From Bacteroides finegoldii DSM 17565 (GTDB lineage: Bacteria; Bacteroidota; Bacteroidia; Bacteroidales; Bacteroidaceae), in the NCBI RefSeq assembly GCF_000156195.1, contig NZ_GG688326.1:105019-169018 (forward strand): a stretch of DNA of 64,000 nucleotides, in the 5' to 3' direction. Numbering within the stretch: the stretch's first letter is position 1; each line of letters begins with the position of its first letter. This document shows positions 15,509-32,491 of this stretch, piece after piece. The position numbers and the translations under genes were made by a program. The notes under the pieces are model-generated. The model was not told where the DNA came from and searched no databases. It saw only the letters and a list, made by a program, of their open reading frames with translations.

Positions 15509-16737
15509 ATGAGAAGTATTTTTAAAGTTCTGTTCTACACCAAGAACCAGTCAATTAAAAATGGTCGTGTTCCGGTTATGGGACGAATAACAATCAATGG
15601 TACGACTGCAAGTTTCAGTTGTAAGTGTGATATACCTCTCTCCCTATGGGATGCAAAGGGAAACTGTGCGAAGGGGAAATCGGAAGAGGCAAGATGCTTG
15701 AACAGGGAGTTGGAGAATATCAAGGTTCGGATAGGAAAACACTATCAGTATATTTGCGACCACGATACATTTGTCACGGCAAAGAAAGTATATGACCGTT
15801 ATACCGGTCTTGGAGAGGAGATTCATTCCCTGATGGAAATCTTCAATATCAAGATTCAGGATTACAGGAATCAGATCGGAAAAACCAAAGCCAAGGGTAC
15901 ATACGAAGGTCTTGTATGTGAAAGCAGATGTCTGCAATGTTATTTGAAGGATAAGATGGGAACGGATGATGTCCCCCTGATGTCGTTGGACATCGATTTT
16001 ATAAAGAACTACTACAACTGGATGCTTTCGGTAAGGGGGTTGGCAAAGTCAACGGCATTTGAACGTATCAACACCTTAAAGTGGCTCATGTATCTGGCTA
16101 TGGATGAAGGATGGATCCACAAACATCCGTTCAAGAAGTTCGAATGCAAGCCGGAATATAGGAAACGCCCGTTTCTTTCAGAGGATGATCTTCAGCGTGT
16201 GATACATGTAAAGCTGAACTACAAACGTCAGCAGGCTATCCGGGATATGTTTGTCTTTATGTGTTTCAGCGGTCTGGCCCATGCCGATCTGAAGGCGTTA
16301 AGCTATAAGAATGTGTATACCGATTCGGATGGAGGCGTATGGCTTATCGGCAACAGGGTAAAGACCAAGCCGCCTATGTCGTCAAACTTCTGCCGATAGC
16401 CGTTGAGCTGATAGAAAGGTACAAGGGAGACGACAAGTTCAAGGATTCTCCCGACAAGGTCTTTCCGGTCGGGAATTTGGAATGCATGGAAGACAGTCTG
16501 AAACGTATCGGTGAAAAGGCAGAATGCAGCATCAGGCTCAGCCCCCACCTTGCACGTCATACCTTTGCGACCCTAGCCCTGAGCAAGGGCATGCCGCTTG
16601 AAACCCTGCAGAAAGTCCTCGGGCACAAGACCATCATCTCCACGCAGGTCTACGCCGGGCTGATCAATCCAAAAATCGGTGAGGACACGGACAGGATGCG
16701 TGAGAAGATCGGCGGAATGTTCCGCTTGGCCAACTAA
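15509..16737 (+). pseudogene. Tyrosine site-specific recombinase (integrase), frameshifted
   Basis: Two overlapping frames make one Bacteroides integrase of about 409 residues. 15509-16360 gives the Arm domain (FKVLFYTKNQSIKNGRVPV), the core-binding SAM-like domain and the start of the catalytic domain (MCFSGLAHADLKAL). The protein continues one frame over from about 16360 (AAYVVKLLPIAVEL) to 16737 with HLARHTFA (HxxR), LGHKTI and the Tyr in TQVYAGL. Loss of one A near 16366 (ACCAAG for ACCAAAG) explains the shift. Box I has Ala where the first Arg is usual, as in several Bacteroides integrases. Sequencing error cannot be excluded. Confidence 0.85.
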
Positions 16738-17064: not shown

Positions 17065-17201
17065 TCCAATATTCTTCCATTCTATGTTTTTGTGGTATCA
17101 ACTAACCATGTGTACAAAAACACATAAAGTACGTAAAGTGAATAACTCCTGCATGAAAATCTGGGATAATTGGGATTAAGATTTGCAATATACACTTTGT
17201 G

Positions 17202-17240
17202 GCCTATATAATGTATAAGCCACAAGTGTTGCCTTTTTTC
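17202..17240 (+). terminator. Hairpin with T tract
   Basis: ACACTTTGTGGC pairs with GCCACAAGTGT with one bulged T, and TTTTTT follows at 17234-17239. It lies just left of the direct repeat at 17252. Confidence 0.5.
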
Positions 17241-17251
17241 TCCTTACTTCC

Positions 17252-17287
17252 TTTGAAATTTACCAGATTTCTAATACAAGGTATTAG
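17252..17287 (+). repeat. Left copy of a 36-bp direct repeat bracketing the accessory block
   Basis: Core starts TTTGAAATTTACCAGATTTC and ends ACAAGGTATTAG. The copy at 30235-30270 is identical except A to G in GGTGTTAG. Weaker similarity extends on both sides (ACAAGTGTT about 28 bases before; ACTTTACAAA about 30 bases after). Both copies have the same orientation. Confidence 0.85.
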
Positions 17288-17382
17288 TCAACACGCTCTT
17301 AAAGTTTCTGTTTTACACAACTTTACAAATATATGAAAATTGTTCTATTCTACAAGTAAGGTTGATAATGTTTGACTCTTTT

Positions 17383-18294
17383 TTATGATTCTATAATATG
17401 ACTGTATTCCTCAAACTCCGGTATGCTCTGCACTTCTTCCTCCTCCATATATAGTTGGATGAAGCGTGCGAATTGTCTGGCGGCGTTTATACCACCTGCA
17501 ATCCCTAAAGGTATTCTGCCTAATGTACGTTGAGGGTTGGCTATTACTATTTCTTCTTCTCCTTTTCCATTGAAAGTCTTCGCATGATGATTACTAAATA
17601 GTGTGATTACAACCTGTTCATAAGGTAGTGTTTCTTTTTTTTGAAACATGAAACGACCGGGTATAGTGATTGTTTTGGAATCACGGTCAAAAACTATTCG
17701 TCTCCAAGGCTGTAAAAAAGCTTTTAGTCCAATAACTATTATAAAGAATAAAGGTTCAAGGAATAATAATGCATTAACGTAACTTTCAGATGTAATTTCT
17801 GATGGAGTGATTACTCCCCAATATAAAAGAGCTAAGAACGGGACAAGGAAAATTAGTAAAAAAAAGACTCTTACTGCTATTCCATCATTATTAATGACAA
17901 TTTGCTTGTTATCAATTCTGTCAAATTTGAATCTGTCACCAAGTAAATCTTTCCAATGATATGGTAAGGTTACATTTTTCAATGTTTCTTTATTATTCAA
18001 AGATATTTTAGGGTAAAGATTCCAAATAGCTCTTAGTCCTATATAATAACACAGACAAAATACTATATTAATGGCTAACAATCCAAGTGCCAGATTAGTA
18101 AATGTAACGTCTCTATGTTGATTAAAGAACACTATAAAAAAAGTAGTTAGTGGCCATAAGAAAGCACTCCCCAATATTATAGTCCAACACTTTCTTTTAT
18201 GCCATTTCCCTTTTCTCATTTCGGTTTCCTGACACTCGGTATCTCCTATGATATTCTTGCGATGTTGTCTGTTTTTATTATTTCCGAATTTCAT
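17383..18294 (-). CDS. Four-helix membrane protein with PH-like domain, unknown function
   Basis: 303 aa from the ATG at 18292-18294; the frame reaches 18339 only through a TTG. There are two membrane helices at about residues 45-95 and two more near 145-200, then a soluble C-terminal domain (RRIVFDRDSKTITIPGRF ... LPYEQVVITLF) that resembles bacterial PH-like domains. The N-terminus is very basic. It is the most downstream gene of the minus-strand accessory block. No function recognised. Confidence 0.65.
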   Translation of the reverse strand: MKFGNNKNRQHRKNIIGDTECQETEMRKGKWHKRKCWTIILGSAFLWPLTTFFIVFFNQHRDVTFTNLALGLLAINIVFCLCYYIGLRAIWNLYPKISLNNKETLKNVTLPYHWKDLLGDRFKFDRIDNKQIVINNDGIAVRVFFLLIFLVPFLALLYWGVITPSEITSESYVNALLFLEPLFFIIVIGLKAFLQPWRRIVFDRDSKTITIPGRFMFQKKETLPYEQVVITLFSNHHAKTFNGKGEEEIVIANPQRTLGRIPLGIAGGINAARQFARFIQLYMEEEEVQSIPEFEEYSHIIES

Positions 18295-18410
18295 GGTTGT
18301 GCCTGTTTTAGTTCGTTTTATTTTCTGAGGAATTTTCAAAATATATCAGTATTAATGAACCGGCTTTTATCATTTCGTTAATTCAATTGATATATTTTAC
18401 TTCATCCGTT

Positions 18411-18584
18411 TCACTGTCGCATAGAAAACAGTCGGTCAATACCGTATTGTCCGGGATTACGATGGATTCTATGAACAGGAAATCCGACATTTTGCAACAG
18501 AAGGGCTTGTCTGCTTGTATTCTTACATCCAGACACTTCGAAAGCCAGTGATAACAGTCCTAATGTTAAAATCTTGTTGTTCAT
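18411..18584 (-). CDS. Short lipoprotein-like ORF, possibly frameshifted
   Basis: A 57-codon ORF with ATG at 18582-18584 reading MNNKILTLGLLSLAFEVSGC, a plausible lipoprotein signal with Cys at residue 20, then a basic tail. In the next frame the same DNA encodes MSDFLFIESIVIPDNTVL and CFLCDSETDEV to a TGA near 18379, which looks more protein-like. The original gene may therefore have joined the first frame's signal to the second frame. This explains part of the 325-bp gap 18340-18664. Confidence 0.35.
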   Translation of the reverse strand: MNNKILTLGLLSLAFEVSGCKNTSRQALLLQNVGFPVHRIHRNPGQYGIDRLFSMRQ

Positions 18585-18664
18585 ACGCTATGTTATTTAG
18601 TGTTATTTCTTGATAATTTACCGGATAAAGGCATCAAATTACATTGAATTACAGCAATATAATC

Positions 18665-19000
18665 CTATATTTTTCGTTTAACTCTATATTCAATAAAAAT
18701 TCCGATAGCATATCCTGGAATAAATGCCAGCAGGATAGACGCGCTTAATACGATAAGCATAAGCAGCCCCCATAGCCAAAGTATCAGAATGGTACTTATA
18801 ATTTTGCTTTCATACAATATGAATAAGTTTGTCAGCAAAAACAGACCTCCCATATATGCTTCTATAACGAACAGTATTATGTCTGATCCGGCAGAGCCTG
18901 ATGTCTCCCACAAAAGTGAAGAACCAAATACGATTTGAATTATCACATCAGACAGTAGGAGTTGCAGAAGAGCTACCAGTATGGCAAGAATATTTTTCAT
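18665..19000 (-). CDS. Small three-helix membrane protein, unknown function
   Basis: 111 aa, almost entirely hydrophobic: helices at about residues 3-24, 40-65 and 68-100, ending in a basic RVKRKI tail. It overlaps the preceding gene by ATGA (18997-19000), indicating translational coupling with the secreted protein upstream. No family recognised. Confidence 0.65.
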   Translation of the reverse strand: MKNILAILVALLQLLLSDVIIQIVFGSSLLWETSGSAGSDIILFVIEAYMGGLFLLTNLFILYESKIISTILILWLWGLLMLIVLSASILLAFIPGYAIGIFIEYRVKRKI

Positions 19001-19578
19001 CTTATATATTTTCCTTTCTTTAGAGGATAAATAAACGGTAAAGACAGTTCTTTTGCGAATGAAATTGTCGCTATACTATAATCATGACTGATTCTTATTG
19101 ACATTGACAAAGGGAAATCTTCACACCAATATTCAATGACTGGATACAACGACCCATCCTCAGCGAAATCTGTTTCTGAAGCAAGGTCAATATAATCAGA
19201 TATAGAAGCGTAACCTTCACATTTTTCTTTTTGCTTTTGGTGAATCTTTTGCGAGGACAAGGCAAAATATATTCTTCTGTCATCAATTTTTCTGATTATG
19301 AGTTCTTGAGATATGGTGTCATTTTTATAATACAACGTGTCTATCTTACTCCTGACTGCACACGGCGAAAATGAAGATAAAAACATCAGCTTTTCAGACA
19401 AATCATAGGTAATTATCCTGCTCTCCAAGTCGCGGTATTGTCTGTCGAAGATTTCTTCATTATAAGCAGCCATAACAAAATTATTATACTTATTTGAATA
19501 GACAAATTGGGCTTTGAAACTATTGAACATTCCTGGCAAAGTTATTAATACAAGAATTAAAAGTGTTTTCAGTTTCAT
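18997..19578 (-). CDS. Secreted protein of unknown function
   Basis: 193 aa. The signal peptide MKLKTLLILVLITLPGMFNSFKA is followed by a soluble domain with no recognised motif (FDRQYRDLESRI, SKIDTLYYKNDTI, EYWCEDFPLSMSI). The frame is open to 19626, but the extra codons run into an unrelated upstream ORF remnant, and the ATG at 19576-19578 gives a clean signal peptide. It is coupled by a 4-bp overlap to the membrane protein gene at 18665-19000. Confidence 0.65.
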   Translation of the reverse strand: MKLKTLLILVLITLPGMFNSFKAQFVYSNKYNNFVMAAYNEEIFDRQYRDLESRIITYDLSEKLMFLSSFSPCAVRSKIDTLYYKNDTISQELIIRKIDDRRIYFALSSQKIHQKQKEKCEGYASISDYIDLASETDFAEDGSLYPVIEYWCEDFPLSMSIRISHDYSIATISFAKELSLPFIYPLKKGKYIR

Positions 19579-19600
19579 ATTCAAATTCGTTTTTATTATT

Positions 19601-19678
19601 CTATTTTTTTGTATCTGTTTGTGCATAGCCGTTGAGACTTAATGTAGCAACGAGAAGCGCAATAATCATTGATTTCAT
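19601..19678 (-). pseudogene. Orphan signal-peptide remnant
   Basis: A 25-codon ORF (ATG at 19676-19678, TAG at 19601-19603) reads MKSMIIALLVATLSLNGYAQ then TDTKK and stops. It is a textbook signal peptide ending at the AQ cleavage site with no mature protein, so it looks like the 5' end of a gene whose body was deleted. It lies between two intact accessory genes. Confidence 0.5.
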
Positions 19679-19688
19679 ATTATGTATA

Positions 19689-20546
19689 TTATTCGTTTTC
19701 TACATTTATATACTTTTCATATTCAGGACCTTCGTACGGAGGGTCACCAAAACCTCGTGAGTTAATGGCAATATCAAAGTTTTCAATATCATTACCGTCT
19801 TCAGACTTCCTGATTCTATAGGTATAATATTTTTCTCTGCTGTGTATAGGCGCTTTGGTGTAATCCCAGTCATGCAGATGACAATAGTAAAGCAGAGGGA
19901 ACGGATTGTTATTGAATTTCAGATTTGTTTTTTTCAGAAAATTATCAATGTGCATACCTTTGCCCAAAACTGCTCCTCCGACAATCATTTTACCCGTAAA
20001 ATACTGACGTGGGCAGCGGTTCTTTAGCCATTTTAGGTTTTCTTCGGATAGAAAATCATCTAATTCTATATTCCAGTTAATCATTATTCTGCTTACAGGG
20101 ACACTGTCTTTTCCGCTTTCATCGTGTGATACCATAATGATTCCCAAAGAATCCCATATAAATATTCCGGGTTCCGCAAGACGTTCGTAATGTCCGAATA
20201 TCTCACACTGTTCTCCTATTGTCATTCTCGGCATGAACGGCTTGCCGTTGTAGGTCATTGTCGTATCTGTAAATACAAACAGGTGTTCCCTGTTCACTCC
20301 CTCTTTTTCGTAGTCTATAGGCGGTTCTTCCGGCAGATGTTCTTCCAAAAAACTGTCTGTCTTGGCCATCAGGGCATCTACTTTGCCCAGAATGTTATCT
20401 ATGCTTCCCATCGCCTTTTCGTGGTTGTAACTGCATCCTGTACAGGAGCTGAGTGCGGACAGGCAAAGCAGTCCGAACCATAGGGCAACGGCTGCCGGAG
20501 CGGGGAGGAATGGATGCTTGTTCATCATATCTGCGTATAGTTTCAT
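19689..20546 (-). CDS. Putative lipoprotein of unknown function
   Basis: 285 aa from ATG 20544-20546; a TTG at 20580-20582 would overlap the upstream stop as TTGA and is an alternative. A hydrophobic N-terminal segment ends in LSALSSC, a lipobox. The mature domain has FVFTDTTMTYNGKPFMPRM, GHYERLAEPGIFIWDSLGI and the C-terminal PYEGPEYEKYINVE, with no family I can name. It lies just after the zinc-ribbon protein gene. Confidence 0.6.
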   Translation of the reverse strand: MKLYADMMNKHPFLPAPAAVALWFGLLCLSALSSCTGCSYNHEKAMGSIDNILGKVDALMAKTDSFLEEHLPEEPPIDYEKEGVNREHLFVFTDTTMTYNGKPFMPRMTIGEQCEIFGHYERLAEPGIFIWDSLGIIMVSHDESGKDSVPVSRIMINWNIELDDFLSEENLKWLKNRCPRQYFTGKMIVGGAVLGKGMHIDNFLKKTNLKFNNNPFPLLYYCHLHDWDYTKAPIHSREKYYTYRIRKSEDGNDIENFDIAINSRGFGDPPYEGPEYEKYINVENE

Positions 20547-20578
20547 GGTTTGCCGGAAACAGGCTGTAAGGGTATTGT

Positions 20579-21223
20579 TCAAAAATCAAAAGAGTTGTGA
20601 CAGGAAGATGTATGTGTACGGTGAATCTTATGCCCTACGATGTATTTAGCACCGCAGTATTTACATTCATGACGCGCTTCCTTCAGTCCTTCGGAGAATT
20701 CAGTAGGAGATTCCACCACAGTGTATGCTTCTTTCCGATGTAAGGTGATACCATGGCAATCCGGACAATATTCATAGAGACCTGTCGCAAGAGGGATGCG
20801 CACTTTCACCTTTTCTCCGCAGGCGGTGCAGGTGTACACATGGATGCAGACGGTCTGCAGATTGAGTTCCATTCGTTCCTGTGGGGTGAAGAGCCGGGCG
20901 TCTTTCTTTATCTCCTGTGCCGACATCTTGCGGAGGGTCTCTTTTCCGCATTTCGGGCAAGTGCGGCTCTGGCTGAGTATCTGCTTGCGTAATCTCAGTC
21001 TGTACCATAGCATCACAGCTGCAATGGCAGGCCATACGGGAACCAGCCACAGCAGGCCGATGAGGGTGCGCCAGGCAAATGCCTGCTCCGTGAGTTGCTG
21101 TTCCAAAGCAGTGGCTGCCGTCTTGCCTTTGGGCTGCAGGTAATTTTTCAATCCTTTCCACGTCAGCCAGTTGAGGAGAAGAAGGGAAAGGCTTCCCAAT
21201 ATAAGAAAAGGTAGTGTGGTCAT
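20579..21223 (-). CDS. Membrane-anchored zinc-ribbon protein, paralog of the TPM protein C-terminal half
   Basis: 214 aa. Two N-terminal membrane segments (LPFLILGSLSLLLLNWL; TLIGLLWLVPVWPAIAAVML) are followed by two likely zinc ribbons with four CxxC pairs: CPKC, CTAC, CPDC and CKYC. The whole length aligns by eye with residues about 195-395 of the protein at 24352-25605 (shared LLWLVPVWPAI, RTCPKC, SEGLKEARHEC/SEGLMEARHRC), but the N-terminal TPM domain and Gly/Ser tail are absent. It overlaps the upstream five-helix gene by ATGA, the same arrangement as in the second module. Confidence 0.75.
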   Translation of the reverse strand: MTTLPFLILGSLSLLLLNWLTWKGLKNYLQPKGKTAATALEQQLTEQAFAWRTLIGLLWLVPVWPAIAAVMLWYRLRLRKQILSQSRTCPKCGKETLRKMSAQEIKKDARLFTPQERMELNLQTVCIHVYTCTACGEKVKVRIPLATGLYEYCPDCHGITLHRKEAYTVVESPTEFSEGLKEARHECKYCGAKYIVGHKIHRTHTSSCHNSFDF

Positions 21224-21888
21224 TGTTTGCCTCCTTTCTCGTTGGTTTCTTCGATGCGTCTGTAAGAACGCTCTATGTCTTCTAAAATGTATGCGTCCAG
21301 CTTACTGCCGTTGAACTTGAACAGGAAGGCCAGAAGTCCTATATATCCGAAGGTGAATAGGGCGGCACTCAGTACCAGCATCGCCACGTCGCTGAACGCT
21401 GCTTCGGAAAACAGCCAAGTGAAAAGTGTCATCCCTGAAAGGCTGATGCACAGCATGGATGCAGCCAGCAGGGCGAGTGTGAGGAATGGGATGAGCATCA
21501 TTCCTATGAGGCTCCGCCACATTTCTTTGCAGAACTTGGGGTGATGACCGGTGAGGGCAAACCCGAAGAGGGAGCAGCCTGCAGCGGTGAACAGCACAAC
21601 GAACAGTCCGAAAAATGCCCATGCCACCCACTCCTGCCAGGATCCTGCGGCAAGCATTCCGCCGAGGTCTGTCCAACGGCTGTTCTCATCACACACGATT
21701 TGCCATATGTAATACAGCACAGAGGTGAAGACTGCTGTGGAGAGGATGACGAGAACGGACGGCAGGCAGCCTGTCGGCTTTTTGCGGTACTGGCGTATCC
21801 GCAACAGTATCAGCATGGAGAACAGCAGCTGGACAGCTATAAGGATATAGAGTCCCGAACCGGTTATTGTTTGTTGTTCCATAGGCAT
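21220..21888 (-). CDS. Five-helix membrane protein, paralog of 25602-26252
   Basis: 222 aa with about five membrane helices. It shares with the 25602-26252 protein the early PTGCL/PLGCL, the central TGHHPKFCK/TGRHPKFCK and the C-terminal RSYR ... NEKGG/RSFR ... HEKGG, in the same order. It sits directly upstream of, and overlaps by 4 bp, a zinc-ribbon protein gene, as its paralog does. The family is unnamed to me. The conserved HPKFCK between helices 3 and 4 may be a functional site. Confidence 0.75.
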   Translation of the reverse strand: MPMEQQTITGSGLYILIAVQLLFSMLILLRIRQYRKKPTGCLPSVLVILSTAVFTSVLYYIWQIVCDENSRWTDLGGMLAAGSWQEWVAWAFFGLFVVLFTAAGCSLFGFALTGHHPKFCKEMWRSLIGMMLIPFLTLALLAASMLCISLSGMTLFTWLFSEAAFSDVAMLVLSAALFTFGYIGLLAFLFKFNGSKLDAYILEDIERSYRRIEETNEKGGKQ

Positions 21889-21924
21889 GTTTTTTTAATG
21901 GCTTGTTATCTATTTGTAATACAG

Positions 21925-21932
21925 CAAATATA
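21925..21932 (-). promoter_or_regulatory. Bacteroides -7 box before the first five-helix gene
   Basis: On the minus strand TATATTTG fits TAnnTTTG, 37 bp before the start at 21888. It would make 21888-17383 a separate transcript from the AraC-led genes. No matching -33 element was found. Confidence 0.45.
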
Positions 21933-21970
21933 GAAAATGATTATTTAGTATGCTTATAGATGGATTTTTT

Positions 21971-22276
21971 TCACCGGAATGTGTTTTTCTTGGTAACGAG
22001 ACTATCCATACTTATATAATGTATTAAAATCGGATATCTCTCAGAAAAAGAAACGTTCATGTTTTGTGTGTATTTCACATAGTGATAGTTTACTTCTTTG
22101 CTGGTCTCTTTGGGATTATCGAAATCAATATATGGAGAACATAAACGTTCCACATCGATGTCATAGTCCGGGTTATCCATGTTGATAATCTGTTTGTCTG
22201 ATTGTGCATGGGCTGTTGCACCGGATAAGCATAAAAATGCTGTCAATCCAATGATGATAAGTGTTTTAATTTTCAT
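21971..22276 (-). CDS. Small secreted protein, unknown function
   Basis: 101 aa. The signal peptide ends in ATAHAQ near residue 24; the mature part is about 75 residues, acidic then basic (NMDNPDYDIDVERLCSPYID; YPILIHYISMDSL). It lies 24 bp after the AraC gene. No family recognised. Confidence 0.6.
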   Translation of the reverse strand: MKIKTLIIIGLTAFLCLSGATAHAQSDKQIINMDNPDYDIDVERLCSPYIDFDNPKETSKEVNYHYVKYTQNMNVSFSERYPILIHYISMDSLVTKKNTFR

Positions 22277-22300
22277 ATTCGTTCATTTTATAATAAATGG

Positions 22301-23170
22301 TCAGCTCCTGTTTCTTCGGATATTTACCGGTGTATCACCGAGATTCCGCTTGCAGAAATCAGACAGGTAAGACTGGTTCGCAAATCCACATTCTTCGGCA
22401 ATCTCCGGTAAGGGAAGGTGTGTAGTCCTCAACAGTTTCAGCACCTGCTCGGCACGTTTTTGCCGAAGCCACTGGGCTACCGGACAGTTAAACAATCTCA
22501 GGAATGTCCGACGGAAGGTAACGGTGCTGTTTGCTCCGCATAGTTCCGCCAATTCTTCTGCTGTCTTCGCTTCATTATGGCATTCCATCACTTTCTGAAT
22601 GAAAGAATGGTCGGTATGGATACCGAGCAGTTCTTCCGCTTGCAAAATGATTTTACGGTTGATATGTTCGTAGGAGGCGTCGAGCAGTTTGAATGATACC
22701 TCAATGCCTTCTGTCGGTTCGGAAGTGGAAGGCATTCCGCATTGTATTCTCGCTTCGCGGAAGTAGTAGAGCATTCTGTGATAGATGGCTTCCAGATGTT
22801 CTTCACGATGCCTTTGTAGCAATCGGCATAAAGTCAGTAACTCTTTTACGCAGCAATAATGCGTGTACCATATTTGCAAACGCATGACATAGCGGGTGGA
22901 TTCTGCTTCACCGGCAGTCATGAACAGCTCCAGCCATCTCTCAAAGTCCGGCTGTTCATGGCTAATTGCTTCGGGAAGCCCGTTCATCCATCCGGCAATC
23001 ATATTCATGAATTCCATGTCCGATGCAAAGGGACGCAGTTGCCGCTCTCTTCTCTCCTCCGGCATATCCTTGGATATGGTCACACAAAGCACACGCAAAC
23101 GTGCTTCCTGGGGATCGTCCGGTTGCAGGCGTGAAAGGAGATAACCGCTTATTGAAAAGCTTTTGTCCAT
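22301..23170 (-). CDS. AraC-family transcriptional regulator
   Basis: 289 aa. The C-terminal 100 residues form an AraC/XylS double helix-turn-helix: TAEELAELCGANSTVTFRRT, WLRQKRAEQVLKLLRTTHLP, then IAEECGFANQSYLSDFCKRN. The N-terminal 180 residues are helical and lack the usual cupin sensing pattern, so the signal is unknown. It sits 12 bp after a TonB-CTD protein gene, inside the envelope gene cluster, and is the obvious candidate regulator for it (inference). Confidence 0.88.
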   Translation of the reverse strand: MDKSFSISGYLLSRLQPDDPQEARLRVLCVTISKDMPEERRERQLRPFASDMEFMNMIAGWMNGLPEAISHEQPDFERWLELFMTAGEAESTRYVMRLQIWYTHYCCVKELLTLCRLLQRHREEHLEAIYHRMLYYFREARIQCGMPSTSEPTEGIEVSFKLLDASYEHINRKIILQAEELLGIHTDHSFIQKVMECHNEAKTAEELAELCGANSTVTFRRTFLRLFNCPVAQWLRQKRAEQVLKLLRTTHLPLPEIAEECGFANQSYLSDFCKRNLGDTPVNIRRNRS

Positions 23171-23182
23171 AGCAGAGAAAAT

Positions 23183-24316
23183 TTATCGGTTTTCAAACCT
23201 GAGGGCCACCGTCATGCGGAATGCTACGGGTTTTCCGTTTTGGGTGGCAGGTATAAATTCGGGAAGCCGTTGGATGGTATATAGTGCTGCAACTTCCAAT
23301 TCGGACGATGTGCTCTCCCGGTTTTCCACCTTGGCATCCTTCGCTTTGCCGTCCTTTCCCACTGTGAAGGATACACTTACATTCCCTTCGGCATTTCCCT
23401 GGTTTCCGAGGCCGGCATTATAGGCCATCCAATGGCGCACGGCAAGCCTGAAATCCGGGAATTTCGCGGACGGTCCTTCCTTGAACTTGGGAAGTTCTCC
23501 GTCCGGGATGTTCATATATCCCTTGGCGGTGTCCGGGACAAGGTCTTCCTCTGTAAATAGCTCGCCGGTGTCGTATATGCCTGCTGCCGGATTGATTTCC
23601 ATGCTTCGGACATCTGATGAGAGATCATTGAAATTGCACCAGTTACCGACGCTGATGCAGTCGATGAACGAATCATATTTCGTTTTTGTCACCATTAGGC
23701 ACACTTCATACCAGGTATGAGGTTGGCTGCCTCCGCCAACAATTTTCCGTTCTCCCTTTTCGTTCTCTTCAAGATAAATCACGGCATCCTTGTGCTCCGG
23801 ATTCGGCTTGCGTACATATAGTTGGATAGTCCGGTCATTCACATGCCATCCATAATTCCGATGTCCGAAATACTCTTCTGTGACAAAGCATTGGGGGCCG
23901 TACTTTCCTGCAATGGCATATAGCAGGGAATCTACATTTGCCGCTCCGTCCAGCCTTCCCTGTGCTAGAATGCCGATCAGTTTTCCTGATTTGTCCGCCA
24001 GCATGCCGGTATACGGGAATTCAAAGTTCCCGAAGCGGGCAAGAACCTCTCCATAGTTTGTTTCTACCGAGCTGTATTCCTGAATAACCGCCTTTTTGCC
24101 TTCCTGGGTTTTACATTTCACTTCTTCCTTCATGAAATAGCGGAATGATTCGTCATAATCCCCGTCATATGGCTTTGCCTTGGAATAATACTTGTCCACC
24201 TTCATTCCGAACTCCACATTTTCCAAATCGTATGCACCCTCACCCCAGTATTGAGGCTGTGCGGCACTGATGCCGCAAAAGAAACTCAAGATTCCCATGA
24301 TAAAAATAGTTTTCAT
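23183..24316 (-). CDS. Secreted protein with TonB-like C-terminal domain
   Basis: 377 aa from ATG 24314-24316 (24325 is an alternative; the longer frame to 24502 overlaps the upstream gene). Signal peptide MKTIFIMGILSFFCGISAA. Residues about 25-270 are an unknown domain (YWGEGAYDLENVEFGMKVDK, YGWHVNDRTIQLYVRKP). Residues about 290-377 match the TonB C-terminal fold: VSVSFTVGKDGKAKDAKVEN, then RLPEFIPATQNGKPVAFRM and a final beta strand. There is a signal peptide but no membrane anchor or proline-rich stalk, so it is not a standard energy transducer. Confidence 0.7.
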   Translation of the reverse strand: MKTIFIMGILSFFCGISAAQPQYWGEGAYDLENVEFGMKVDKYYSKAKPYDGDYDESFRYFMKEEVKCKTQEGKKAVIQEYSSVETNYGEVLARFGNFEFPYTGMLADKSGKLIGILAQGRLDGAANVDSLLYAIAGKYGPQCFVTEEYFGHRNYGWHVNDRTIQLYVRKPNPEHKDAVIYLEENEKGERKIVGGGSQPHTWYEVCLMVTKTKYDSFIDCISVGNWCNFNDLSSDVRSMEINPAAGIYDTGELFTEEDLVPDTAKGYMNIPDGELPKFKEGPSAKFPDFRLAVRHWMAYNAGLGNQGNAEGNVSVSFTVGKDGKAKDAKVENRESTSSELEVAALYTIQRLPEFIPATQNGKPVAFRMTVALRFENR

Positions 24317-24351
24317 GATTTGCATGTTTTTGTTAATATTGATATACTGTA

Positions 24352-25605
24352 TTAGAAACGGCTGGATGAACCTCCGCCTCCGGACGATCCTCCTCCGAAA
24401 CTGCCGCCTCCGCCACCGCCTGAGCCTCCCGAACGTCTGGAAGAGGTGTTGATTTTCGGTATTGTATAGCCTACCATGTATTCGGCATCGCAATGCATAC
24501 ATCGATGGCGAGCCTCCATCAGTCCTTCTGATAAAGTGGTGGCTTTAATAATAGTCCGATATTTTTCTTTCTTGTGCAGCGTCATTTGCCCGCAGGAGGG
24601 GCAGCATTCATAGCCGTCCTTTTTAAGCGGTATCCGGATTTTCACCTCTTCGCTGCAAGCGGAGCACCGGTAGATGCGGATGTATGCCGTCTTCAGTTCT
24701 GTTTCTTTGCGTTCGCTTTCAGTCAGCCGTTTCGTATCCTTTACCAACTCGTGCAAAGGAATCTCCCGGAGGGTTTCCCGGTTGCATTTCGGGCATGTCC
24801 GGCTGCGCCTGAGGGTCTTTTGTTTCTGGATGCCGAAATACCAGCAGGCAATACCCAGAATGGCGGGCCACACCGGTACCAGCCAGCACAGTCCGAGCAG
24901 GGTGCGTACAGTAAAGGGTTTTCGGGTCGCCAGCAAGGTCAGAGTGGCTTCCGTCCCTTCGTCTTTGGGCGTCATCCTGTGTACCGCCGATTTCCATACA
25001 AGCCAGTTTATAAGTATCAGCATCAGGGCAAATACGATAAAGACCAGGGAAGGGGTGGTACGCCGGAACTTTTTTATCCATGCTTCCGGTGGTGCTGCCT
25101 GATAGTTACTTCCGTACAGAACTTCCGCCACCGCCTTGACACCTTCAATCATTCCTGTATTCCAGTCATTTTCCCGAAGATGCGGCACCATGGTTTCCAT
25201 CTGTATTCTTTTGCAAATGGCATCCGGCAATGCTCCTTCCAGTCCGTACCCGGTCTTGAAGGTTATATCCCGAATATCCCGAGTCAGCAGAATCAGCAGT
25301 CCGTTGTCATCTTCCGCCTTGCCGACACCCCACCGGTTGAACAGCGTAACAGCAAATTCATGCGGCTCCTCTCCTCCGATACTGTTCAAGGCTACAACTG
25401 CCACTTCTATGGTCAGGGAGTCTTCCAGTTGTTGCAATATATCGTTGATTTTATTCTTCGTTTCACTGTCCAATATATGGTCAGGGTCGGATACCCAATT
25501 ATCCGCATTGTATGTCTTGGGGTTGGGTACATCATCGACCGTTCCCCATGCCATCGGGCAGAAACCCACCAGAACGGCTATACAGATTATAAGTTTTCGT
25601 ATCAT
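24352..25605 (-). CDS. TPM-domain protein with zinc ribbons and Gly/Ser-rich tail
   Basis: 417 aa. Signal peptide (residues 1-21), then a TPM domain (TLP18.3/Psb32/MOLO-1 family) at about 35-170: WVSDPDHILD, VAVVALNSIGG, FNRWGVGKAEDDNGLLILL, RDITFKTGYGLEGALPD. Membrane segments follow near 185-205 and 235-255, then two likely zinc ribbons with CPKC, CSAC, CPSC and CMHC, and a C-terminal tail of about 25 residues that is mostly Gly and Ser ending SSSRF. It overlaps the upstream five-helix gene by ATGA. The TPM assignment is firm; its activity here is unknown. Confidence 0.82.
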   Translation of the reverse strand: MIRKLIICIAVLVGFCPMAWGTVDDVPNPKTYNADNWVSDPDHILDSETKNKINDILQQLEDSLTIEVAVVALNSIGGEEPHEFAVTLFNRWGVGKAEDDNGLLILLTRDIRDITFKTGYGLEGALPDAICKRIQMETMVPHLRENDWNTGMIEGVKAVAEVLYGSNYQAAPPEAWIKKFRRTTPSLVFIVFALMLILINWLVWKSAVHRMTPKDEGTEATLTLLATRKPFTVRTLLGLCWLVPVWPAILGIACWYFGIQKQKTLRRSRTCPKCNRETLREIPLHELVKDTKRLTESERKETELKTAYIRIYRCSACSEEVKIRIPLKKDGYECCPSCGQMTLHKKEKYRTIIKATTLSEGLMEARHRCMHCDAEYMVGYTIPKINTSSRRSGGSGGGGGGSFGGGSSGGGGSSSRF

Positions 25606-26252
25606 ACAGTGCCTCCTTTCTCATGATTATTCATATCGACTGGTCTGAAAGAACGTCTGTTGTCCTTTTCATCGTATTCTTTCAATTTCTCGCTGTTCAT
25701 TTCCAACAGGTAAACGACGAATCCGGAAAATCCAAGCAGGCACATCACGCAGAAAAATAAGAGCAGAAGCATCCAGCCCCAACCGATATCGTCAAACATG
25801 GGTGAGGCAAACCTCATACAAATAATATAGGCAAACCCAAATGCCGCAACCAATATTCCCAATACCACGATGGGAAGCAGCAGGATTACTGCCAGTGTTT
25901 TCCATATCAGTTTGCAGAATTTGGGGTGACGGCCTGTGACAGCATAGCCTGTCAAAGAGCAGACGGTGGCAGATACCAGTATCATTATCAAACAGATAAA
26001 TCCAGCCATCAGCCATTCCACAGGAGAAGCGGCAGTGAGCAGCCCTCTGCTCTTTGCAAAGATATTGGCAAATAGTCCTTCATTGATGATAAGATGCCCC
26101 AGACTGAACAGTACAGTGGTCAGAGCAAATACAATCATAAAAATAAAACCTGCCGCCAGACAGCCTAATGGCTCTTTGGAGTCCTGCTTCCTTCTCCAGA
26201 TAATCAGCCCGGTTATCAGGACCTGTAGTACAATTAGGATATATCCTTCCAT
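25602..26252 (-). CDS. Five-helix membrane protein, paralog of 21220-21888
   Basis: 216 aa, about five membrane helices, with the conserved TGRHPKFCK between helices 3 and 4 and a charged C-terminus (NRRSFRPVDMNNHEKGG). The gene is 8 bp after the TonB-CTD gene and overlaps the TPM gene start by 4 bp, so it is probably co-translated with TPM. The repeated pairing of this family with the zinc-ribbon family suggests the two proteins work together in the inner membrane (inference). Confidence 0.75.
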   Translation of the reverse strand: MEGYILIVLQVLITGLIIWRRKQDSKEPLGCLAAGFIFMIVFALTTVLFSLGHLIINEGLFANIFAKSRGLLTAASPVEWLMAGFICLIMILVSATVCSLTGYAVTGRHPKFCKLIWKTLAVILLLPIVVLGILVAAFGFAYIICMRFASPMFDDIGWGWMLLLLFFCVMCLLGFSGFVVYLLEMNSEKLKEYDEKDNRRSFRPVDMNNHEKGGTV

Positions 26253-26260
26253 GGCTTCAT

Positions 26261-27847
26261 TCAGTTAAAGATGACCGGAAGCGAAGCGACAAAGGAGATA
26301 GCTTTTCCCTTCCATGTCGCCGGGACATACTTTATGCCGTAGAGGCAGTCGCAGACCGCTTTTTCCAATAGTGGGTGGGGGTCTCCGTTTATTTTTACGT
26401 TGCTGGCAACGCCGTCAGCCCCGATGGTTATTTCCGCCATCATTCTTCCTGTAATTCCTTGCTCGACTGCCTCTTCCGGCTTCCTGAGCAATTGTGCCAA
26501 GACCATGTTCCATTCGTCTGGCATTCCTGTCTGCGGGTTGATGGGCTTGGCTGGCTGGAAATCAGGACTGAAATAATCCACTTCCTCCATCTCTTCCGGT
26601 TCGGCCTGCTTTTTATTGTCCGGTGATTTTTCGGTGCACAACCATTCGATAAGTTCGTTGCATCGTTCGCGGTTGATTATTAACCGGGATGCTTCTCCTT
26701 CCGATGGGGCAAATACAGTTATCTCGGCAATTTTCCGTCTCTTTTCGTCCGGCATGTAGAGCAACAGACTATCCCCCTGCAAGGCTGTCCTGTAGTGTTT
26801 TCCCATCACTCCGGCAGCGTCTGTATCGTCATTTTCCTCTGAAGCTTCATCTTCCATAAAGTGTTTCAAGGTCTCTTCCAGGTTGTTCGGGTCGATGCCT
26901 TCTTCTTTCAACCACTCTTCAAACGTGATTTTCCTTGTACTATTTTTCAGAATCTTGTCCAAATCTCCTGTTGTAGATGTTGAAGAGGACGGCTCGTACC
27001 AGTTCCCGTCCCTGTGATAAAGGCGCTTCATGCCTTTCAGTTTGTCGAGAGTCTCTGCGTCTGCGGAAATGATGAAGCCGTTGTTGTCAACCTTTTCTAT
27101 GGAAAAAGTCTTGCTGCCCCAAGTCACCTGCACCGGTTTGTCTCCAAAATCCTTTATGGGTACTGTGATGCGGTCATATTCCTGAGGCATATAGAAAGAC
27201 AAGGAGATGTGTCCGCCTGCAATTTCCTGATAAGGAACAGTCAGTGGTATCTGTAATCCGAACCATATATTCAACATGTCTTTGTTCTTGGCATAGTCGC
27301 CGCCCTCAAGCAAATAGATGTCTTCTTCCGGGTGTATATAGACCGGTTTACCCTGCTTGTCAGTCAAATGAAGCTGCAAATCAGTCTCCAGGTCGAAGAA
27401 AAGTTCTTTGCAGAACCCCGTGAAGTTCCCGTTCTCATCCTCGTGATAATACTTTTCCCACAGGCCGGATCCTTGCCGACCGCCGAAATATGAAGATACA
27501 TCTTCTTCTTTGCCTCTTAGCATGAGGTTGAAAAAGATAGAAGAATCCTTGTTCGGCTCTATGAATGCCTTGTCAAAACACATGAACAGTCTTGACAGGC
27601 TCTTTTTAAAGCTTTCGTGTTTGAATTTGTCCGCCCATTTTTCCCAAGGGAGCCTCTCCTGTTTGAACTCTTGGTTCTCTGTCAATGAATCAAGTTCGCC
27701 GAATGCCGCTCCAGTCTCGAACTGATAGAGCACTTCAAGTTGCTCCATGGCCTCTTTTTTCTCTTCTTCTGTCATCTTCTTTTTGTTTTGTGCCCATGCT
27801 CCCAGTACGAGACATGCAAGCAGGACGGTTGATAATATTCTTCTCAT
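26261..27847 (-). CDS. Secreted protein with TonB-like C-terminal domain
   Basis: 528 aa from ATG 27845-27847, which gives the signal peptide MRRILSTVLLACLVLGAWAQ; the longer frame to 27913 is unlikely. The main domain has no recognised family. Residues about 425-528 (FQPAKPINPQTGMPDEWNMV, MMAEITIGADGVASNVKING, PATWKGKAISF) match the TonB C-terminal domain and are clearly paralogous to the end of the next protein upstream. There is no transmembrane anchor after cleavage. It lies 26 bp after the upstream gene, in the same transcript. Confidence 0.7.
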   Translation of the reverse strand: MRRILSTVLLACLVLGAWAQNKKKMTEEEKKEAMEQLEVLYQFETGAAFGELDSLTENQEFKQERLPWEKWADKFKHESFKKSLSRLFMCFDKAFIEPNKDSSIFFNLMLRGKEEDVSSYFGGRQGSGLWEKYYHEDENGNFTGFCKELFFDLETDLQLHLTDKQGKPVYIHPEEDIYLLEGGDYAKNKDMLNIWFGLQIPLTVPYQEIAGGHISLSFYMPQEYDRITVPIKDFGDKPVQVTWGSKTFSIEKVDNNGFIISADAETLDKLKGMKRLYHRDGNWYEPSSSTSTTGDLDKILKNSTRKITFEEWLKEEGIDPNNLEETLKHFMEDEASEENDDTDAAGVMGKHYRTALQGDSLLLYMPDEKRRKIAEITVFAPSEGEASRLIINRERCNELIEWLCTEKSPDNKKQAEPEEMEEVDYFSPDFQPAKPINPQTGMPDEWNMVLAQLLRKPEEAVEQGITGRMMAEITIGADGVASNVKINGDPHPLLEKAVCDCLYGIKYVPATWKGKAISFVASLPVIFN

Positions 27848-27873
27848 GATGAATGGTGGTATTGTGTTTATAA

Positions 27874-29547
27874 TCAAAATGATATCGGAATAACTGCGAC
27901 GGATGCGACGCATTCTCCGTCATATTTTGCCGACATGAACCTCATGCGGTAGATGCAATCCGTTACGGTTTCGCTCAAAACCGGATGCGGCGAGCTTGTA
28001 ATTTCCACTTTGCTGACAGCACCATCGGCCTCAATTACCACCGTAGCCATCACCTTGCCCGTAATGTTCTGCCCGGCAACTTCTTGTGGGAGTGTAAGCA
28101 TCTGCGATAGTTCGGCGCTCCACTCGCTTGATGTGCCTGTCGTGATATGTAGCGGAACGGCAGGCTGGAATCCGTTTTCAGACAGGTCTATTGTCTCCGT
28201 GTCTTTTTCATATAAATGCCAATCAATGGCATTGCGTCCCTTGGTCAGTGTCCGGGCATATTCGACTCCCATTTTCAAATGTCCCTCCAGATAATCCCTG
28301 AAACCTTCAAGCACCCGGTCCTTATCAAGCCGCAATCCGCTGGCCGTTTGTTTTTCAGGAATATCCCACTCGGCACCGGCCCTGTATATTTCGACGGCAT
28401 CCATTCCGTTCATAAAGACATAACCATAAACTACGCCTTGTCTGTATGCTTTGTTCAATTCTGCTTTGATGGCTTTGTTCATAAGACATATCGAGTCGCA
28501 GTCCTGACACAGAATCGCATTTTTAAAACATTCTGTTATAGTCATGGCACTCCTCAGTCCGTCTTCAAAAGCGGCCATGATGGCAGGACTGTTCCCACGG
28601 GAAAGTAGCATTGCATCAAACTCCTCTCTGTGGGCTTCTCCTATAAACCATTTATATTCCATGATCCAGCCAGCCTGTGCTACTCCCACTGCATACGAAA
28701 TCATATCGTTAGGTGCCAGCAATGCATTTCGTTCATCAGGAGTGAGCCTCCTGTTGTCTTTCAGTTTGCGGATTCCGTCCGGAACGGCAGGGGAGTCAAA
28801 TTTTGCAATTGCCGAAGCCAGGGCTTCCGCTTGGGTGATGTCATTGCTTGCTGTGACGGTATCTATCCACTCTGGAAGAATAAGGGCATCGTCGGCATGC
28901 TCTTGACACAGGAAATAAGGTCTGTTGTGATTTGCGATGTCGTAATAGCGTTCTTTCTCTTTATTGAAAAAAGAAAACCATTTATCGGATAAGGTGTCAT
29001 AATGCCGGGACATCTCATTTTCAGAAGCGATATGCTTCCTTACCTGTTTCAGCACATCGGAAATTGCGGCGTCGATATAATCCAGTTCCGGATAGGGATT
29101 TGTTGAGTATGCTCCCATAAGGGCTCCGTTGCGGAAGCAGGTCCTTTCCATTCCGGTACTCTCTGCAATGTCCTTCAATTGTTTCCAGAGCGAGGAATAG
29201 TCTTTTAGTACGATTTCTTTCCAATGCTTTACGCCAAAGTCATAGCCGGCGTGGATATACGGAGCGTACTCTTTCCTGTAAGTTTTCACCTTGACGGATT
29301 TCCGGGCAAGCCTATCATAGGCGGTGGTATAGCATAAACTGTACACGATAGGATCCAGTACATCAATTTTGTCTCCCGGTTGGGGAAATTGTACCTTGGG
29401 TGCCGCTTTCTTTTCAATAGCCATATTCCATACCGTATCCTTTGTTACCTTTATATCAGGCTCCTCTTCGGTTATCCGGTTTGTATTTTGAGCTCCGGTT
29501 GACAATACCATGCCTGCAAACAAAGCTATGAATGCTATTTTTTTCAT
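27874..29547 (-). CDS. Large secreted protein with TonB-like C-terminal domain
   Basis: 557 aa from ATG 29545-29547 (signal peptide MKKIAFIALFAGMVLSTGAQ); the ATG at 29577 is also possible. The frame is open to 29883, but a -7 promoter box lies inside that extension, so it is not used. The central region is helical with many aromatic and Cys residues (CFKNAILCQDCDSICLMNKA) and no recognised family. The C-terminus (MATVVIEADGAVSKVEITS, MSAKYDGECVASVAV) is a TonB-like domain. It is the first gene of the accessory minus-strand transcript. Confidence 0.7.
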   Translation of the reverse strand: MKKIAFIALFAGMVLSTGAQNTNRITEEEPDIKVTKDTVWNMAIEKKAAPKVQFPQPGDKIDVLDPIVYSLCYTTAYDRLARKSVKVKTYRKEYAPYIHAGYDFGVKHWKEIVLKDYSSLWKQLKDIAESTGMERTCFRNGALMGAYSTNPYPELDYIDAAISDVLKQVRKHIASENEMSRHYDTLSDKWFSFFNKEKERYYDIANHNRPYFLCQEHADDALILPEWIDTVTASNDITQAEALASAIAKFDSPAVPDGIRKLKDNRRLTPDERNALLAPNDMISYAVGVAQAGWIMEYKWFIGEAHREEFDAMLLSRGNSPAIMAAFEDGLRSAMTITECFKNAILCQDCDSICLMNKAIKAELNKAYRQGVVYGYVFMNGMDAVEIYRAGAEWDIPEKQTASGLRLDKDRVLEGFRDYLEGHLKMGVEYARTLTKGRNAIDWHLYEKDTETIDLSENGFQPAVPLHITTGTSSEWSAELSQMLTLPQEVAGQNITGKVMATVVIEADGAVSKVEITSSPHPVLSETVTDCIYRMRFMSAKYDGECVASVAVIPISF

Positions 29548-29672
29548 AGCAGCTTTTACAGGATAAGACACCTTCATATCATTCCAAAAGTAATTGTATA
29601 ATTTATATATTGCGAGAATCTGATTATTCAGGATAGAGAATAGAAAAGGACAGTAGGAAAACGCTTGGTTAG

Positions 29673-29680
29673 CAAAGGTA
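29673..29680 (-). promoter_or_regulatory. Bacteroides -7 box for the accessory envelope operon
   Basis: On the minus strand TACCTTTG, a perfect TAnnTTTG, 126 bp before the start at 29547. No well-spaced -33 TTTG was seen. Its position decides against the far-upstream start codon. Confidence 0.5.
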
Positions 29681-29883
29681 CAGCTCGGCAAACGCAAAAT
29701 AGTGAAAAGCCATCCTTTCATGGCTATGAATCCGACCGATGCCTTTTGCCGGTAGTAAGAGCCGGGGTTCGTCAGATAATTTTTCTTCTCCCAATCACAG
29801 GGGTTGGGAATAAAGCCGGTTTTGACTTTCGGTGGCAGACTGTCACCCCAAGCGTTTTTTATTATAGCAATTACGTTTTTCAT

Positions 29884-30879
29884 AATCTTATCCGTTTTTT
29901 CTGCGTAAAAATAGCCAAATCCTACACATGGTTTCTTATGAATGCTGATAAGTTTTACGGATTTCTATTCATTCATGACCAATTATCCGACAATTATCCA
30001 ACACACATGGATTCCATTATTGAAAATCAACATTTCGGACTGACCCCATTTTCGCCACCGGACTTGAATGCCACACTATCTAACAAGAAAGTGTGGAGCC
30101 GGTTTACTTATTTGTATTAGAGGTTCTGGTAAAACCCGGAAGCAAATAAATGAAAACAGTACCCCACACCTATATCGCATGTCATTCGCATACGGATACA
30201 TGTGACAAGTGTTACTGCTCAGCCCTGCTTCCATTTTGAAATTTACCAGATTTCTAATACAAGGTGTTAGCGAAACACATCAACTATATATGTCAGTCGT
30301 TTGCACGACTTTACAAAGATAGGCAATGTTTTCGGATAAGCAGCAAGGAGTACTGTTTATTTTGCAAAAATACATGTATCGCTCAAAATTTCCGATATGA
30401 TTTCTGACTAAAATATTGGAAAACTGTTCACTTTCCTTCTTTATGTGATTTGTCGGCTCCTTTTCTGATACCAGTACGGAAAAGCGACTCCGGAGTTTTT
30501 TTGGGGGGGGATACGGTTTGGCGACGTTTCCGCCGTTAAACTGTCCGGTTTTCGTTTAACGAAAACACACCCTGCTGTCCGCAGGAGCGGACCACGTTTA
30601 TCCAATAATTATTGTGTACAAGCCTGTTGTATGGCTATTCTCCTGTGATTTACGGGACATTTCCATCAGATATTTACCAGCAGCTCACCCCATTAAAAGG
30701 TGGATATCTTTCCATAACCATGTGACTTACACCCATAGTTCAGGAATAAAGAGACGCATATACGGGAAATCTGCCCTTTCCATACCCTATTTCATCGCCA
30801 AATCGTTACCTGTCTGTTTTCTATGCTCCGCTTATCTTTTGAAACTCAAAAAGTTAAAGAGAACTACGCTATTTTTTTT
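29884..30879. other. Gene-poor spacer with repeats
   Basis: About 1 kb without a convincing gene. It contains a short hairpin (CCACACT at 30071 with AGTGTGG at 30090), a partial inverted copy of the direct repeat at 30112-30137 (TTGTATTAGA ... CTGGTAAAA), the direct repeat itself at 30235-30270, a T7-G8 homopolymer at 30496-30510 and a short palindrome TTTTCGTTTAACGAAAA. Open frames here look random. Confidence 0.6.
30235..30270 (+). repeat. Right copy of the 36-bp direct repeat
   Basis: Matches 17252-17287 at 35 of 36 positions, same orientation, 12,983 bp apart. Together the copies enclose the whole minus-strand accessory block. Confidence 0.85.
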
Positions 30880-31700: not shown

Positions 31701-31742
31701 GTATGCTAAAGCATAGCTTTAGACTGGATAAAGCTACGCTTT
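31684..31742. repeat. Three consecutive mini-hairpins with AAAGC/GCTTT arms
   Basis: 31684-31700 CTAAAGC-TGT-GCTTTAG, 31706-31722 CTAAAGC-ATA-GCTTTAG, 31730-31742 AAAGC-TAC-GCTTT followed by T. Each has a three-base loop. They lie between the RND remnant and the convergent reductase gene and may act as a bidirectional terminator. Confidence 0.75.
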
Positions 31743-31747
31743 TGTTT

Positions 31748-32439: not shown

Positions 32440-32491
32440 CATCCGCGTCATTGAGGCGTTACTTTGGAATTTTAGATAAAATTTAAATAGT

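Follow-up and report, generated by a model that had tools for sequence, protein, structure and literature searches.

A mobile cluster of envelope-type genes in Bacteroides finegoldii and a covarying leader element that may mark other operons of the kind

This report deals with a cluster of 13 genes, and with the noncoding element at its head, in a 64,000-nucleotide (nt) stretch of Bacteroides finegoldii DSM 17565 (NZ_GG688326.1, positions 105,019 to 169,018), here called the window, to which all coordinates refer unless another contig is named. The cluster may be read as a mobile, integrase-linked island that carries one envelope operon led by a shared structured RNA, with a function that we infer from its parts, and this reading is given about the same chance of being right as of being wrong. 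In its wider form, held with equally divided confidence, gut Bacteroidales would share a structured leader RNA of about 245 nt that marks operons which are mobile and often integrase-linked and whose envelope cargo is interchangeable; under that same joint claim, the TPM, five-helix and TonB C-terminal domain (TonB-CTD) genes of the cluster would be one such cargo. The transfer, the insertion and the leader family are the safest statements. The original prediction, which concerned the genes, was silent on the integrase, the insertion site and the structured leader.

The 36-nt direct repeat at the edges of the cluster pointed the way to the noncoding leader. An alignment of B. finegoldii, Phocaeicola coprocola and Phocaeicola faecicola from 30435 to 26264 (4280 columns, 3686 identical) contains a run of 200 nt, at 30282-30083 and outside any predicted gene, that is the same in all three species. 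The next longest run is 77 nt, and none of 2000 column shuffles reached 200 in the 2440-column part that holds the leader and the TonB1 gene. The element folds as one long hairpin (-63.2 kcal/mol, z score -4.42), a rod of about 73 pairs whose arms include fully complementary stretches of 10 and 9 nt. At its 5' edge lies the motif TAnnTTTG, which we take to be a -7 box of the Bacteroides type. A promoter had been proposed at 29673, and a -7 box does exist there, but it is missing in P. faecicola, whereas the box at 30321-30314 is found in all three species. By eye, an invariant CUCCACAC near the 3' end of the leader could pair, in the alignment, with GUGUGGGG/GUGUGGAG inside the rod, and an alternative fold or a switch is possible.

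Relatives of the leader were found by distant blastn searches of a phage collection, which returned the unverified fecal scaffolds MT836914.1 (69.9% over 98%, E 2e-15) and MT838511.1 (71.7% over 70%, E 1e-11); the same search of a plasmid collection returned the B. finegoldii record only. Both relatives adopt the same fold, with z scores of -6.81 and -9.08, respectively. When the three sequences were aligned, 17 of the 73 predicted pairs had both partners changed in one sequence or more, a number reached by none of 500 shuffles and falling to 0-4 when the pairing was slid, and 91.7% of the cells paired, against 37-48% when slid. A covariance model was then searched over 38 sources (636 kb), where it detected the known copies and one full-length match outside its own training sequences, in an IMG/VR contig (L126:7076-7316, 177 bits, E 2.7e-37). 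This copy, which folds at a z score of -7.77, had been retrieved by a pattern of the 5' arm and is therefore independent of the model, though not of the arm sequence. The pattern retrieved eight contigs, with a significant model match in L126 only; two further scans of viral contigs by pattern gave no match. In a plain MAFFT alignment, L126 keeps 54 of the 73 pairs (24-39 when slid) and shows 2-5 double-changed pairs against each model row. A six-row alignment, fitted to the structure and hence biased towards it, contains 19 double-changed pairs (0 of 500 shuffles, 1-6 when slid), while one of its five measures, that of further pair types, was reached by 12 of 500 shuffles. The leader is like the cis-regulatory leader RNAs in Rfam in being a long covarying hairpin right after a promoter box and differs from them in that no Rfam match at E up to 1 overlaps any leader copy (window 15000-32000 and contigs L121, L122 and L126). 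Literature searches, in sources available in part, found no published account of the leader, and literature searches for the cluster found none either.

On the contigs of its relatives, the leader stands before different operons that include secreted and membrane proteins. In B. finegoldii, MT836914 and L126, the TAnnTTTG motif begins at the second base of the model match; P. coprocola and P. faecicola have it placed as in B. finegoldii, and in MT838511 it is shifted 11 nt upstream, to 10 nt ahead of the match. Downstream of the MT836914 leader, on the same strand, are a 333-amino-acid (aa) frame, a secreted-type protein of 382 aa, a small membrane protein, a 156-aa frame and a secreted-type protein of 227 aa. 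The MT838511 leader is followed by a zinc-ribbon protein with two transmembrane segments, a 283-aa protein with an N-terminal transmembrane segment, a secreted-type protein and a 235-aa frame, and that of L126 by a leucine-rich repeat protein and a 242-aa protein with four transmembrane segments, after which comes a gene on the opposite strand. Signals in these cargo proteins were judged by eye where hydropathy crossed no threshold. Integrases with the same three Pfam domains as that of the window are encoded on MT836914 and L126, and none was seen on the 5-kb contig of MT838511.

The same hairpin could instead act as DNA, as a folded recombination site comparable to the attC sites of integrons, used by the neighbouring tyrosine integrase to capture or move cargo, with copies at 17252 and 30235 bounding a 13-kb cassette. 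The limits first proposed for the cluster, 17252-30270, coincide exactly with the outer ends of a direct repeat of 36 nt, whose copies are 97% identical; two copies bracket the cluster, the integrase lies 515 bp beyond the left one, and two of the other three contigs carry integrases of the same three-domain type. Folded as DNA, the hairpin has a z score of -3.38, and the model weakly detects the reverse strand. With up to 3 mismatches allowed, a 33-nt pattern of the repeat occurs nowhere else in the genome. The likeness of left and right is, however, that of a diverged copy of promoter and leader (25.8 bits) with no sharp core: the left copy has its own TAnnTTTG at 17333-17326, and the sequence around it, 17080-17300, folds at a z score of -4.49. 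The 3' half of the left copy aligns poorly, and this copy was excluded from the model and from all pair counts. Searches with the left copy in phages and plasmids gave chance matches only, besides B. finegoldii. As one arm of the leader, the repeats are weakened as simple attachment (att) sites, an idea retained within the DNA-site explanation. In addition, no copy has its -7 box more than about 10 nt from the 5' edge, the Phocaeicola assemblies hold a single copy (though arrays near contig ends could hide a second), and recurrent G-U pairs would be A-C mismatches on the opposite strand. Several pairs of the leader are invariant or recurrent G-U, which in itself favours RNA. Because the promoter box lies at the edge, the G-U pairs recur and the orientation to the cargo is constant, a leader working as RNA is favoured, and a DNA site is considered unlikely, if still deserving of attention.

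The evidence for transfer comes from the comparison with P. coprocola, to which the window is 94.1% identical in nucleotides over 24196-30435, versus 69-76% for a stretch taken as native that lies further along the same two contigs. The homology continues in three pieces with gaps (24196-30435, 30484-30791 and 30790-30878) up to 30878, so the foreign piece extends to the joint. Homology to another genome (G012) ends at 15124 and restarts at 30882, a point within the gene of the second pump of an RND efflux operon. In that genome and in a further one (G001), the same locus holds the intact operon, in which genes for a membrane fusion protein, for two RND pumps and for an outer-membrane factor were recognised by eye. 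In a third (G021), a distance of about 1.7 kb separates the counterparts of window positions 274-12197 from those of 31707-34124. The neighbours upstream of the block also differ between carriers: the RND remnant in B. finegoldii, PRTRC genes in P. faecicola and, in P. coprocola, a gene read by eye as lipB, with an array of lipoprotein genes between it and the block. The integrase lies inside the replaced segment and converges on the cluster, and a 91.8% identical relative in P. massiliensis (L104) stands beside genes that look by eye like capsule genes, without this cargo. On the two sides of the cluster, the window also matches a record of B. finegoldii TSDC17.2, NZ_OY725914.1, with identities of 99.7% (9.2 kb) and 99.6% (13.7 kb). 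This record is listed as a plasmid by PLSDB, yet it carries thi genes and nspC and is syntenic with the window, and it is probably a piece of chromosome. Six tRNA genes lie near the island at 33753-34367 (three Gly gcc, two Leu cag and one Leu gag), with no sign, as far as seen, of use as an insertion site. Two neighbouring nagA-like genes at 34559-36918 are about 66% identical in DNA.

Table 1. Coordinates of the features discussed, with supporting matches
Feature	Position	Strand	Match or remark
Foreign segment	15125..30881	.	replaced 9.3 kb of RND efflux operon
Tyrosine integrase, in two frames	15509..16737	+	intact 409-aa copy in strain TSDC17.2 (L045)
Diverged second leader copy	17114..17334	-	25.8 bits, E 0.0033, full model length
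Left copy of 36-nt direct repeat	17252..17287	-	
318-aa membrane protein	17383..18339	-	divergent paralogs in Phocaeicola arrays
111-aa membrane protein	18665..19000	-	no family matched
209-aa secreted-type protein	18997..19626	-	no family matched
DUF7738 lipoprotein-like protein	19689..20582	-	PF24880 E 1.6e-15
Zn_b, zinc-ribbon membrane protein (TPMZn without TPM)	20579..21223	-	45% identical to TPMZn, four CxxC
5H_b, second five-helix protein	21220..21888	-	33% identical to 5H_a
Truncated secreted protein	21971..22276	-	longer forms of 181 aa (B. finegoldii TSDC17.2) and 238 aa (Phocaeicola)
AraC-type helix-turn-helix regulator	22301..23170	-	HTH_18 E 1.7e-16
TonB3, secreted, TonB-CTD	23183..24313	-	PF03544 E 1.7e-12
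TPMZn: signal, TPM, two transmembrane segments, four CxxC, Gly/Ser tail	24352..25605	-	PF04536 E 3.1e-37
5H_a, five-helix membrane protein, orphan family	25602..26252	-	
TonB2, secreted, TonB-CTD	26261..27844	-	PF03544 E 5.4e-8
TonB1, secreted, TonB-CTD, no anchor	27877..29547	-	PF03544 E 1.6e-8
Structured leader element, full covariance-model match	30077..30322	-	216.7 bits; one of the model's three source sequences
Right copy of 36-nt direct repeat (5' arm of leader hairpin)	30235..30270	-	
TAnnTTTG box at leader 5' edge	30314..30321	-	shared by the three carrier species
3' remnant of RND efflux pump gene after the insertion	30823-31687		ACR_tran E 8.7e-9

The genes themselves run from 29547 to 17383, and the claim that this run occupies one strand held for all 13, each on the minus strand; longer frames on the plus strand (up to 350 aa), antisense to these genes, were treated as spurious. 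Their order is TonB1, TonB2, 5H_a, TPMZn, TonB3, the AraC-type gene, a small gene, 5H_b, Zn_b, DUF7738 and three more envelope-type genes. The overlap described between a five-helix gene and the gene of a TPM protein with four CxxC pairs and a Gly/Ser tail was confirmed (TPM at E 3.1e-37, overlap of 4 nt), and the three secreted proteins with TonB-like ends and neither anchor nor proline stalk were likewise recovered by Pfam, hydropathy and a proline content of 4%. The AraC gene proved to lie in mid-cluster and not at the head. Small envelope proteins are present as proposed, but one of their genes, at 21971-22276, is a shortened form of that of a longer protein. By hydropathy, every predicted product except the AraC-type protein has a signal-like or transmembrane segment. 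A cell-envelope system is thus plausible, given these predicted locations and the published proposals for modules of TPM and zinc-ribbon proteins. General searches added little: PHROGs gave strong matches for the TSDC17.2 integrase only, the others being weak (for example, an HNH endonuclease at E 3e-4 through the Zn_b ribbons), and sequence searches of the PDB gave weak matches only, TonB domains at E 0.05-0.34 included.

The order of the block TonB1-TonB2-5H-TPMZn-AraC-5H-zinc ribbon is kept in B. finegoldii, P. coprocola and P. faecicola, and it was found in no further species of the collections searched. The neighbourhood check suggested for the TPM, five-helix and TonB-CTD genes therefore came out in favour of their co-inheritance, in all three carrier species, and the cluster is, as judged from sequence comparison, a horizontally moved block and no core system of Bacteroides. 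For seven genes compared with their Phocaeicola copies, the ratio of nonsynonymous to synonymous substitution rates (dN/dS) is 0.15-0.43, so these genes are maintained under purifying selection. This bears on the possibility that the island is decaying and its genes are unrelated and without a common task. The integrase in two frames, the truncated small gene, the loss of TonB3 in Phocaeicola and the variable downstream genes all fit such decay, but the conserved order, the dN/dS values, the 200 identical nt of the leader and a fusion of five-helix and zinc-ribbon sequences do not, and a mere assemblage of this sort seems improbable.

The distribution was also followed gene by gene. TPMZn matched in 50 of 61 genomes; within the genus, the match in the 36 genomes other than its own was to the TPM end only (34) or absent (2). 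Outside the genus there was one long match, in genome G057 (33% over residues 10-414), and genome G039 matched in two pieces inside one 555-aa frame. A scan of genome contigs, which detects close relatives only, found six TPMZn loci, those of P. coprocola and P. faecicola being 96% identical over the whole length. Zn_b was found in 2 of 151 genomes of the family, its own and one with a weak fragment containing stops; the five-helix profile matched 1 of 295 Bacteroidales genomes, its own; DUF7738 occurred in 16 of those 295; and the 318-aa family (A4) was found in 2 of 344 genomes, again its own and one weak fragment. A secreted array family (A5) was found in none of the 344, which shows little as its source genomes are not among them. 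Viral contigs held no relatives of Zn_b, TonB1 or A5, phages no match to 5H_b, and plasmids matches to TonB2 from B. finegoldii only.

Each five-helix gene is paired with a zinc-ribbon gene. The 4-nt gene overlap occurs twice, in 5H_a/TPMZn and in 5H_b/Zn_b, and the CxxC pairs of TPMZn lie at positions 271, 314, 335 and 369. In P. faecicola, a third module (L033:16878-18029) consists of the second half of a five-helix protein fused to a zinc-ribbon part without TPM; in a comparison of five proteins, it matched 5H_a at 29.8% over 84 aa (E 6.5e-7) and TPMZn at 47% over 191 aa (E 2.9e-56), and the same fusion frame is open in P. coprocola. This fusion suggests that the five-helix and zinc-ribbon parts act together, with TPM as an optional addition. 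That a TPM domain is followed by a zinc ribbon had been taken as odd, which turned out otherwise, as one ribbon (two CxxC) is usual, being found in 28 of 32 TPM loci; one other has three CxxC and three have four (L002 and L003, which belong to this cluster, and L004 from genome G057). LemA is encoded near 29 of the 32, all but the same three, and it is also absent from the Pfam matches of the cluster proteins, as is any PspA homolog. What is unusual in Bacteroides is the two-ribbon form of TPM and the gene set as a whole. The LemA-TPM (YgcG-type) module of Bacteroidetes shares with the cluster a TPM protein with signal peptide, transmembrane segment, zinc ribbon and Gly/Ser tail, whereas the cluster has four CxxC, or two ribbons, and no LemA. 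The operons of PspA, zinc-ribbon and TPM proteins (B. subtilis ydjFGHI), in the available part of PMC11237479, likewise encode TPM together with membrane proteins that bear zinc ribbons, but the cluster has five-helix and secreted TonB-CTD proteins in place of PspA or a band-7 protein. That same part links TPM and zinc-ribbon modules to the assembly of membrane complexes, and a phosphatase role for them is doubted in what was available of PMC12419801.

The three TonB-CTD proteins pass the PF03544 cut-off, while the NCBIfam tonB_Cterm cut-off (27.1 bits) is passed by TonB3 only (TonB1 23.5 and TonB2 20.7 bits). Each has an N-terminal signal-like segment, its cleavage being a prediction, and no further transmembrane segment by hydropathy, and proline makes up 4% of their middle regions, compared with 7-10% in five anchored TonB_C proteins of the same genome. 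They share the C-terminal domain with TonB energy transducers and differ from them in lacking the N-terminal anchor and the proline-rich, periplasm-spanning region; the anchor belongs to the definition of such transducers in the available part of PMC12204202. Anchorless proteins of this type are no oddity, contrary to what had been proposed, since five or six other proteins of the same genome look similar. It holds 16 TonB_C matches in 15 proteins, of which 5 are anchored by hydropathy and 9 have a signal or lipobox-like start only, 3 of them in the cluster; 1 of the 15 was not judged, with its N-terminus outside the locus, and L119, whose frame is cut in the locus, is unsure. The predicted structure of TonB2 (mean confidence 52.3) is recognisable only in its TonB-CTD, where residues 429-527 match 6i97_D (Z 9.1, root-mean-square deviation 2.1 over 86); its beta-rich middle part gave no match above unrelated rows, though in a model of more than 400 residues single domains may escape. 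An FKBP_N chaperone domain in TonB1 was considered and dropped (E 0.02-0.05, below the curated cut-off, lost on short fragments and without PDB support). The TonB1 start at 29547 is preferred: a longer annotated form of 669 aa covers 29548-29883, where differences by codon position (3/8/9 and 4/7/9) are not coding-like, and that form is probably wrong.

A free periplasmic TonB fragment reportedly inhibits transport, and the secreted TonB-CTD proteins might be decoys: by taking up the TonB boxes, they would shut those outer-membrane transporters that phages or bacteriocins exploit. The TonB-CTD fold of TonB2 without an anchor would suit such a role. Set against it are the commonness of similar anchorless proteins in the same genome, the five-helix and zinc-ribbon part, which it leaves unexplained, and the fate of TonB3: in both Phocaeicola (L033 and L034, each from 11287) this gene has been shortened in frame until about 47 aa remain, the signal and the last strand, so TonB3 is dispensable there. 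The decoy role is thus thought very improbable.

Beyond the core, both Phocaeicola carry large arrays of repeated orphan lipoprotein and membrane protein genes (L047 8109-19462 and L048 1-12000), which run near the contig ends. They include paralogs of the 318-aa protein and of a secreted-type family of 323-325 aa, and DUF7738 DNA matches three places in P. coprocola. Such repeated paralogous lipoproteins and membrane proteins, on a mobile, integrase-linked element of gut Bacteroidales, call to mind an orphan-immunity array of the rAID/AID type, directed against contact-dependent toxins, as does the GC content of 32-37% in the three cluster genes closest to the integrase. The rAID systems, in the available part of PMC12247911, share with the cluster a tyrosine recombinase, a co-directional array and mobility among gut Bacteroidales. 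They also have conserved intergenic motifs, and the cluster has a conserved noncoding element that may or may not be their counterpart. They are defined by a recombinase homologous to BF9343_RS08045 that lies upstream of at least two co-directional genes with GC below 41%, whereas here the integrase, on the plus strand, does not head the minus-strand genes but converges on them, the element stands at the operon head, and 9 of the 13 genes exceed 41% (4 are below it). No known immunity domain was among the Pfam matches, and a PADLOC scan of 10 of the 13 proteins gave a single weak match (E 0.025). An immunity array is accordingly judged unlikely, and an envelope operon under a shared leader remains the preferred reading.

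A number of observations nevertheless weigh against that preferred reading. There are four independent leader sequences only, three of them from metagenomic or viral contigs, one of these retrieved through its arm sequence, and the near-palindromic hairpin is weakly detected by the model on the reverse strand in L121 and L122. That the leader is transcribed and has any effect on its cargo is something that we infer from sequence. The cargo of the relatives has no sequence similarity, at the thresholds used, to that of the cluster, and parts of it do not look like envelope proteins: the frames of 333 and 156 aa in MT836914 and that of 235 aa at the contig end of MT838511 have neither signal nor transmembrane segment, and the leucine-rich repeat protein of L126 falls below every transmembrane threshold and is lipoprotein-like by eye only. 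Relatives of TPMZn elsewhere occur without five-helix or TonB proteins of the cluster's kind, the structure model of 5H_b (mean predicted local distance difference test score 48.3) is too low for use, and the loss of TonB3 in Phocaeicola, together with the broken integrase and the truncated small gene, speaks of island decay.

If the preferred reading is right, the leader would be transcribed from the -7 box at 30321, and its RNA would set whether, or how strongly, the cargo is expressed. The five-helix and zinc-ribbon proteins, with or without TPM, may then form one inner-membrane unit that helps to assemble or hold the secreted proteins, whose TonB-type ends could bind outer-membrane partners through strand addition. 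The whole would protect or remodel the envelope under attack or stress, and it may have been passed between gut Bacteroidaceae as an accessory trait. A covarying leader without an Rfam match would provide a sequence handle on mobile envelope genes of a hidden class in the human gut, and it makes the regulation of such envelope operons directly testable. Should the cargo guard against antagonism or phages, the leader would offer a way to collect such systems without any recourse to protein homology.

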